A stretch of 64,000 nucleotides of DNA from an uncultured Pelagibacteraceae bacterium. GTDB taxonomy: Bacteria > Pseudomonadota > Alphaproteobacteria > Pelagibacterales > Pelagibacteraceae. The notes under the pieces were generated by a model. That model saw nothing but the letters and a program-made list of their open reading frames with translations. It did no database searches and was not told the DNA's origin. Positions 14,380 through 48,836 of this stretch are shown one piece after another. The translations under genes were made by a program, and so were the position numbers. Where the stretch lies: NCBI GenBank assembly GCA_902571525.1, contig CACGCL010000003.1, forward strand, positions 50,813 to 114,812. Direction: 5' to 3'. Numbering within the stretch: the stretch's first letter is position 1; every line of letters begins with the position of its first letter.

Positions 14380-14970
14380 ATGTTCGAATTACCTAAATTA
14401 GATTACACAAAATCAGCGCTTGCTCCAATAATGTCAGAGGAAACCCTTGATCTTCATCATGGAAAACATCATCAAACTTATATAACAAATCTTAATAATT
14501 TTATAAAAGATACAGAAATGTCTAAAATGTCATTAGAGGAAATTATTGTTAGTTCTTCTAAAGATAAATCCAAGGCAGGTATTTTTAATAATGCAAGCCA
14601 ACATTGGAACCACATAATGTTCTGGAAATGTATGAAGCCAAATGGTGGTGGTGCTATGCCTGAAAAATTAAAAAAAAGAATTGAATCAGATTTTGGAAGC
14701 GCAGATGAATTCAAAAAACAGTTTATACAAGCAGGAATTACTCAATTTGGTTCTGGATGGTGTTGGTTATCAATCAACAACGGTAAGTTAGTAGTTAGCA
14801 AAACTCCCAATGCTGAAAATACTTTAATTCAAAATATGAAACCTATTTTAGGTTGTGATGTATGGGAACATTCATATTACGTAGATTATAAAAATAGAAG
14901 ACCTGAATATTTAGAAAATTTCTACGAAAAACTAATTAATTGGGAATTTGTTGAGTCTCAACTAGATTAA
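14380..14970 (+). CDS. sodB: Superoxide dismutase (Fe/Mn)
   Basis: LDLHHGKHHQTYITNLN, FNNASQHWNHIMFW, GCDVWEHSYYVDYKNRRPEYLENF. Confidence 0.96.
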   Translation: MFELPKLDYTKSALAPIMSEETLDLHHGKHHQTYITNLNNFIKDTEMSKMSLEEIIVSSSKDKSKAGIFNNASQHWNHIMFWKCMKPNGGGAMPEKLKKRIESDFGSADEFKKQFIQAGITQFGSGWCWLSINNGKLVVSKTPNAENTLIQNMKPILGCDVWEHSYYVDYKNRRPEYLENFYEKLINWEFVESQLD

Positions 14971-14972
14971 AA

Positions 14973-15005
14973 GGGGCGTTCTGTTGACAGGTGCCCCCAT
15001 ACCCC
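14973..15005. repeat. GC-rich hairpin repeat element, copy 1: GGGGCGTTCTGTTGACAGGTGCCCCCATACCCC
   Basis: Near-identical to 48179-48210; GGGGC/GCCCC stem; begins 2 nt after sodB stop and ends 8 nt before the stop of the minus-strand ORF. Confidence 0.75.
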
Positions 15006-15013
15006 AATCTTAG

Positions 15014-15205
15014 TTAAATGTTTTTAGGCTCTTTCTTTAAATGCCCAACAACTTTTCCAGAGTTTTTTCCAGATTTAATAACGTATCCGCTTGTGCCATT
15101 GCCATTAGCTTCAACAGATTTTAAATTTCGGAACATTAATTGATTTAGCCTAGCGATCTTTGAGCCTCGGCTAAACAAATTAAGAACTCTGTGCATTCTT
15201 TTCAT
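15014..15205 (-). CDS. Small basic hypothetical protein (63 aa)
   Basis: AAGGAG ribosome-binding site before ATG at 15205; MKRMHRVLNLFSRGSKIARLNQLMFRNLKSVEANGNGTSGYVIKSGKNSGKVVGHLKKEPKNI; bounded by structured elements. Confidence 0.55.
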   Translation of the reverse strand: MKRMHRVLNLFSRGSKIARLNQLMFRNLKSVEANGNGTSGYVIKSGKNSGKVVGHLKKEPKNI

Positions 15206-48065: not shown

Positions 48066-48179
48066 ATGTCAAAAAGGTACAGTGGAAAATCGTTCAAAGA
48101 CTCTAGCTTTAAAAAGAAACCCAAATTATCTCTGAAAGAAAAAAGAAGGTTAAAAAAAGAAAAAAAAAAGAGTAAATAG
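48066..48179 (+). CDS. Very small lysine-rich protein (37 aa), not in ORF track
   Basis: Manual translation: MSKRYSGKSFKDSSFKKKPKLSLKEKRRLKKEKKKSK*. Confidence 0.5.
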   Translation: MSKRYSGKSFKDSSFKKKPKLSLKEKRRLKKEKKKSK

Positions 48180-48210
48180 GGGCGTTCTGTTGCTAGGTGC
48201 CCCGGACCCC
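48179..48210. repeat. GC-rich hairpin repeat element, copy 2: GGGGCGTTCTGTTGCTAGGTGCCCCGGACCCC
   Basis: First 25 nt differ from 14973-14997 at only 2 positions; shares the G of the preceding TAG stop; ends 7 nt before the stop of a minus-strand gene. Confidence 0.75.
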
Positions 48211-48217
48211 AAAAAAT

Positions 48218-48424
48218 TTATCCTTTAAACATTTCTAATGCTTTATTTAGAAGCTCTACTGATTTTTTGTGCTCTCCACTATCGTGAGCTTTCATTCCAG
48301 CCTCTCTTAATTTTTGAGCTTCTGCAATTTTTGCATCAATGCTTTTTGCCATCATTGGGCATGAACCTGCAAATACAGAACTCGAAAATAATACAAAAGA
48401 TAAGATTAAGACTAATTTTCTCAT
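48218..48424 (-). CDS. Small secreted protein with SCPMM motif and helical hairpin
   Basis: Signal peptide (MRKLVLILSFVLFSSSVFA); EAQKLREAGMKAHDSGEHKKSVELLNKALEMF, TPR-like. Confidence 0.75.
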   Translation of the reverse strand: MRKLVLILSFVLFSSSVFAGSCPMMAKSIDAKIAEAQKLREAGMKAHDSGEHKKSVELLNKALEMFKG

Positions 48425-48533: not shown

Positions 48534-48836
48534 ATGTTTATAGCAATGAATAGATTTAAAATTGTGCTGGGTAAAGAACAAGACTTTGAAGATGTTTGGA
48601 GAAATAGAGATACACATTTAAAAGGTGTGCCAGGCTTTAAAGAATTTCATTTAGTTAAAGGAAATACCAACGAAGAATTCAGTTTGTATGCATCACATAG
48701 TATATGGAGTTCAAAAGAAGATTTTATAAATTGGACGAAATCAGAGGCATTCAGATTAGCGCACAAGAATGCTGGTCAACATCAAGATCTTTATTTAGGT
48801 GCTCCTAATTTTGAAGGATTTGAAGTTGTTTTATAA
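48534..48836 (+). CDS. Antibiotic-biosynthesis-monooxygenase (ABM) fold / heme monooxygenase-like protein
   Basis: MNRFKIVLGKEQDFEDVWRNRDTHLKGVPGFKEFHLVKG...YASHSIWSSKEDFINWTKSEAFRLAH. Confidence 0.8.
   Translation: MFIAMNRFKIVLGKEQDFEDVWRNRDTHLKGVPGFKEFHLVKGNTNEEFSLYASHSIWSSKEDFINWTKSEAFRLAHKNAGQHQDLYLGAPNFEGFEVVL

Follow-up and report, generated by a model that had tools for sequence, protein, structure and literature searches.

The tmRNA gene is an established target of genomic islands, and in Dehalococcoides tandem ssrA islands are bounded by a 20-bp repeat (McMurdie 2011, PMC3146451). In Methylophilaceae, additive flexible islands contain repeats of a tRNA end (PMC10872708). For the streamlined SAR11 bacteria, attC sites have been reported to be absent from the hypervariable regions (Wilhelm 2007, PMC2217521), and the route by which small accessory and defence genes enter these genomes had been unclear. 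SAR11 papers on hypervariable regions, on flexible islands and on structured RNAs, drawn largely from outside the subscription journals, yielded no description of tmRNA cassettes in this group.

The DNA analyzed here (the window) is a stretch of 64,000 nucleotides from an uncultured Pelagibacteraceae bacterium, with the following features.

14380 to 14970, plus strand: sodB, Fe/Mn superoxide dismutase gene, transcribed towards the copy-1 gene; the native right flank of copy 1 is the end of sodB
14973 to 15005, minus strand: copy 1, tmRNA terminal-pseudoknot sequence, sense GGGGTATGGGGGCACCTGTCAACAGAACGCCCC (Rfam fragment match, stem pairing)
14973 to 14984, minus strand: putative minimal shared recombination core of copy 1, ACAGAACGCCCC, from the sodB-side junction in genome G034
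15014 to 15205, minus strand: 63-aa gene whose 3' end bears copy 1; no Pfam match
48066 to 48179, plus strand: 37-codon lysine-rich ORF converging on copy 2, with the G of its TAG stop shared with the element
48179 to 48210, minus strand: copy 2, tmRNA terminal-pseudoknot sequence, sense GGGGTCCGGGGCACCTAGCAACAGAACGCCCC (Rfam fragment match, stem pairing)
48218 to 48424, minus strand: 68-aa small gene with a signal-peptide-like start, adjoining copy 2
48534 to 48836, plus strand: antibiotic-biosynthesis-monooxygenase-like gene (PF03992), divergent from the copy-2 gene and used as the anchor for aligning the orthologous site

The two copies are direct repeats 33.2 kb apart, and the positions, the shared orientation and the 2 differences over the first 25 nt given in a first-pass annotation all proved exact on re-checking. 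They are the only sites in the window with at most 3 mismatches, compared with 0 in 100 dinucleotide shuffles, and the repeat is therefore not due to chance. As had also been described, the copies begin at or within 2 nt of a plus-strand stop codon, the sodB TAA (14968-14970) standing 2 nt before copy 1 and copy 2 starting from the G of TAG, and the opposing small genes are 7-8 nt away, with ends at 15014 (8 nt, copy 1) and 48218 (7 nt, copy 2). What had been overlooked is that the minus strand is the sense strand of both elements, each standing at the 3' end of a small gene on that strand.

Read in this direction, both copies are almost certainly the complete 3'-terminal pseudoknot (the knot, below) of the permuted alphaproteobacterial tmRNA that the host itself encodes (GGGGtnnGGGGCACCTnnCAACAGAACGCCCC). 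The true tmRNA is encoded on a separate contig of the same genome (31 contigs, 78% complete), where a third copy, at G000:C4:26959-26983, forms the end of the tmRNA gene; this tmRNA is permuted, with the tag ANNKFALAA (ARAGORN), and matches RF01849 alpha_tmRNA with 226 bits (Rfam). The window copies match the 3' end of RF01849 on the minus strand with 28.3 and 24.7 bits (E-values of 1e-4 and 1.5e-3), well under the gathering score of 50 bits; at the gathering threshold Rfam returns no match across the window, and no other Rfam family appears at the two sites at any reported threshold. The copies represent the last ~32 nt of the alpha_tmRNA family but have neither its tRNA-like domain nor a tag frame, and ARAGORN predicts no tmRNA gene at either. 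The element, which the first-pass annotation could place in no named family, is thus a sub-threshold fragment of a known one, and the proposed comparison with Rfam does return a match, but to tmRNA, which is neither a terminator nor a riboswitch.

The sense strand is an H-type pseudoknot, with stem S1 (GGGU:ACCU), stem S2 (GGGGC:GCCCC) and an A-rich third loop. Both stems are intact in both window copies: in copy 1, S1 pairs 15004-15001 (GGGU) with 14992-14989 (ACCU) and S2 pairs 14997-14993 (GGGGC) with 14977-14973 (GCCCC), and in copy 2 the corresponding stems are 48209-48206 with 48198-48195 and 48203-48199 with 48183-48179. The two pairings that the first-pass annotation had read as alternative folds are these two stems of a single structure; its other calls, of a structured RNA in a repeat family, terminator-like on the minus strand and more than a generic terminator, were well made. 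In tmRNAs of the sister family and class, S1 shows a compensatory change from GGGU:ACCU to CGGU:ACCG, and S2 pairs 2, 4, 5 and 6 switch between GC and AT, so that both stems are supported in tmRNA (stem pairs were counted by script, since the variable length of loop 1 displaces S1 in a MAFFT alignment). S1 is missing from many other dispersed copies, in which S2 is retained.

Described at first as a two-copy element, in a reading that a lack of further copies in related genomes would have refuted, the knot proved, when these were checked, to be widespread across Pelagibacteraceae. Of 194 Pelagibacteraceae genomes, 85 have the core CACCNGGCAACAGAA in two or more places, with a maximum of 7; the corresponding counts are 0 among the 53 sister-family genomes (Fisher p about 1e-11) and 6 among 286 other genomes of the class. 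Matches to the search pattern in public genomes are overwhelmingly from SAR11 (Pelagibacteraceae single cells). The non-redundant copies collected comprise 114 in tmRNA, 45 just 3' of a protein gene and 50 others, from a sample of mostly incomplete single-cell assemblies with loci fetched by patterns that favour well-conserved knots. The extra copies form tandem arrays below tmRNA or sit at the 3' ends of protein genes, recurrently pnp, rnhA, the copy-1 gene and the copy-2 gene. In several SAR11 genomes the knot lies 1-2 nt past the stop codon of rnhA (RNase HI), and in others 6-16 nt past that of pnp (loci L047, L101, L149, L161 and L020 for the two genes). Viral contigs gave 9 exact matches to the first pattern, and those checked were phage- or host-borne tmRNAs. 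One contig classed as viral (L004, IMGVR_UViG_3300020477_001008, 242 kb) encodes an alpha-type permuted tmRNA with the tag ADENLALAA, near a sub-threshold RNase P RNA match and a tRNA-Ser; it may come from a large phage that encodes RNAs for translation, or else be a misclassified host contig. Another viral-contig tmRNA (L009:1395-1705) has an extended predicted tag, AKTINADENLALAA.

The sequences flanking the dispersed knots argue strongly that they are recombination junctions of mobile gene cassettes. Sixteen right-flank clusters recur behind knots whose left-hand partners differ (tmRNA, pnp, rnhA, the copy-1 gene, other cassettes), and shuffled flanks gave no comparable similarity clusters. 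A cassette of 342-350 bp, consisting of a copy-2-family gene and a knot, is 88-97% identical in three contexts, namely after tmRNA (G014), after another cassette (G019) and in the gap between the copy-1 knot and sodB (AG-333-P14), and the homology stops at or within about 25 nt of the flanking knots. In AG-337-M06 a copy-2-family cassette likewise follows the copy-1 gene, on a contig that ends soon after. In two single-cell genomes, then, a cassette of the copy-2 family stands behind the copy-1 knot, physically linking the two window features as parts of a single system. All 53 pairs of adjacent knots are direct repeats, 124-6291 bp apart; below tmRNA the arrays can be long, as in G316 with seven core matches within 7 kb, and in tandem arrays the genes are mostly on the strand opposite to the knot. 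In the array at L063 (G028:C12), the copies bear the same variant knot (CACGGTCT-GGGGCACCGGGTAACAG) as the genome's own tmRNA, which suggests either local derivation or matching to the host site.

The copy-1 site shows both occupied and unoccupied states across this genome and its relatives. The copy-1 gene is accessory, with close homologues in 4 of 37 same-genus genomes, its own included. Its knot abuts sodB in this genome (G000) and in G016; in G034, where sodB is 96% identical, a 1-kb element lies between them. It begins with sequence that in G031 stands behind the rnhA knot, and its sodB-side junction keeps only ACAGAACGCCCC (12 nt). Three further genomes (G029, G079, G084) have the sodB end, with half-knots, joined to other DNA. 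This junction and these half-knots locate the exchange in the knot's right half. The non-tmRNA copies have 97 mismatches on the left and 23 on the right, a fourfold difference in degeneracy that is expected with the core in the right half. At the second site, the copy-2 orthologues beside the monooxygenase gene end in a knot in G000, G016, G034 and G092, with a compensatory S2 change in G034 (A-U for G-C), and G008, G082 and G065 have unrelated ordinary hairpins in its place. Relatives of the copy-2 gene elsewhere form mobile units of gene plus pseudoknot; the gene itself is a stable neighbour of the monooxygenase gene in several species, which counts against mobility. No knot lies upstream of either window small gene, so these are single sites and not complete cassettes, and in this genome neither is followed by an additional cassette.

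The genes found in cassettes encode, among others, a type I restriction-modification system, HNH and DpnI-like nucleases and MrcB/NO VEIN-type proteins, and many have no known function. The tmRNA-proximal cassettes (L048, L161, L063, L185, L321) carry defence-like cargo, with type I restriction-modification in L048 (G009:C3) and an MrcB/NO VEIN protein beside an exo/endonuclease in L161, and contain numerous short genes for secreted proteins that begin with MKKLLxIVxLxLL.

On the basis of these comparisons, we consider it very probable that the elements are dispersed SAR11 tmRNA-tail pseudoknots serving as attachment sites of a gene-cassette system. In the model we propose, a cassette would consist of one or a few genes followed by a knot, and recombination in the right half of the knot (ACAGAACGCCCC) would insert it downstream of any resident knot, whether that knot belongs to tmRNA or closes a protein gene, regenerating a knot on either side. 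The two small accessory genes of the window would each end in such a resident site.

The closest precedent, and provisionally the class of which the SAR11 system would be a new variant, is that of the tmRNA-targeted islands of Dehalococcoides. As there, tandem units with accessory cargo lie below a single tmRNA gene, all in one orientation and delimited by that gene's 3' end or by short direct repeats of this end; the same element is found at different att copies, with occupied and unoccupied sites, and some Dehalococcoides islands also have no integrase. The Dehalococcoides arrays lie within 100 kb of ssrA, and a serine recombinase module (DsiB) is present in many of their islands; the SAR11 units measure 0.1-6 kb and no recombinase was found in any. 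In SAR11 the repeated sequence takes in the terminal pseudoknot of a permuted tmRNA, and it also occurs far from the tmRNA gene, at protein-gene 3' ends. The Methylophilaceae tRNA-gene islands and tycheposons resemble this system in that cargo accretes by a tRNA gene whose last ~20 bp recur, and they differ from it in the tmRNA target, the single-gene cassettes, the dispersed secondary sites and the failure to find an xerD-like gene in the SAR11 units. Integron cassettes likewise combine a small gene with a 3' recombination site able to form a structured single strand, in arrays of one orientation and with a recombinase that, in the SAR11 case too, would act in trans. In contrast to integrons, the knot contains by inspection no attC core (RYYYAAC...GTTRRRY), there is no integron integrase (the genome's tyrosine recombinase scores 29.9 with integrase_gron, against a cut-off of 265), and the cargo of the larger SAR11 cassettes mostly runs against the site.

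We infer that a site-specific recombinase is at work. Among 94 cassette ORFs there is no match to tyrosine or serine recombinase families at an E-value below about 1e-6 (ten weaker Pfam matches among these ORFs stand outside that set), no resolvase was found in 37 same-genus genomes, and the tyrosine recombinases of the genomes lie outside the cassettes. Most genomes of the genus Pelagibacter with a match have one such enzyme, of about 320 aa and distant from XerC/XerD; the sister family mostly has two canonical ones. With a single recombinase in most of these genomes and none found in the cassettes, the lone Xer-like enzyme is a candidate for acting in trans, an enzyme supplied by phage being equally open. 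The 32-nt knot has no match in 50,697 phage records as a phage attP, a query of low power at that length. In G000 the Xer-like recombinase (317 aa) is encoded at G000:C2:37304-37843 (L325:1936-2889), beside glycosyltransferase-like genes. That it should be an integron-like trans system, in which the 317-aa enzyme recombines the knots and cassettes, each with its own terminator, are caught at tmRNA and at gene 3' ends, is a tentative proposal that we hold to be rather doubtful. The single divergent Xer-like enzyme separately raises the question of chromosome dimer resolution in SAR11.

Could the cassettes move without such an enzyme? RecA-type homologous recombination or replication slippage between knots of 25-32 bp would account for the lack of an element-encoded recombinase, and recombination in SAR11 is reported to be high, with structural RNA genes proposed as homology zones (PMC2217521). 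At several junctions, however, the shared sequence is far below the usual length for homologous recombination, as where the inserted element meets sodB in G034; a specific enzyme is suggested by the invariably direct orientation and by the repeated use of exactly one point, and the sister family has the same tmRNA tail yet no dispersed copies, all of which makes this explanation improbable. More remote still are a REP-like palindrome that a TnpA-REP transposase mobilizes and a novel riboswitch or other regulatory RNA, either of which a dispersed, intergenic, GC-rich hairpin might bring to mind: the element is homologous over its full length to the tmRNA tail, and knots stand beside cassettes or gene ends and not upstream of a regulon. 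The tmRNA identity (ARAGORN, Rfam), together with the shared cassette starts, contradicts such a reading.

A role at transcript ends is a different matter, since it may be combined with attachment. Because ordinary hairpins take the place of the knot at the copy-2 site in relatives, the knot probably also ends transcription, and at the window sites the hairpin or pseudoknot with its U tract would terminate the minus-strand transcript and protect its 3' end, as its position in tmRNA implies. After the hairpin there is TTTT at copy 1 and only TATTT, a poor tract, at copy 2; across copies the first six positions after the knot are T-enriched (0.44-0.51 versus 0.37-0.44 in the background). A simple promoter/terminator scan identified no terminator at either copy, and isolated knots, copy 2 included, fold no better than shuffles by a method that cannot score pseudoknots. 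One might go further and regard the knot as nothing but an exapted terminator or 3'-stability element, a tmRNA tail spread by ordinary duplication and kept for ending or protecting mRNAs. The location 7-8 nt past stop codons between convergent genes, the substitution by hairpins in orthologues, the one compensatory change and the T-enrichment would all suit this explanation, which nonetheless leaves unaccounted for the cassette starts common to different left contexts, the ending of cassette homology at knots, the tandem arrays with genes mostly on the opposite strand and the loss of S1 in many copies, and we judge it unlikely.

For the attachment-site reading, ACAGAACGCCCC within the tmRNA pseudoknot provides a concrete, searchable junction; cassettes are predicted after tmRNA, pnp, rnhA and small genes, and the recombinase becomes testable. 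If the proposal on the Xer-like enzyme is correct, such a system would capture single-gene cassettes, defence genes included. On the attachment-site reading itself, the end of an RNA gene has been put to a second use as a movable joint, probably with termination as an added role, and the ocean SAR11, among the most abundant cells on Earth, possess a gene-exchange route that has been little noticed.
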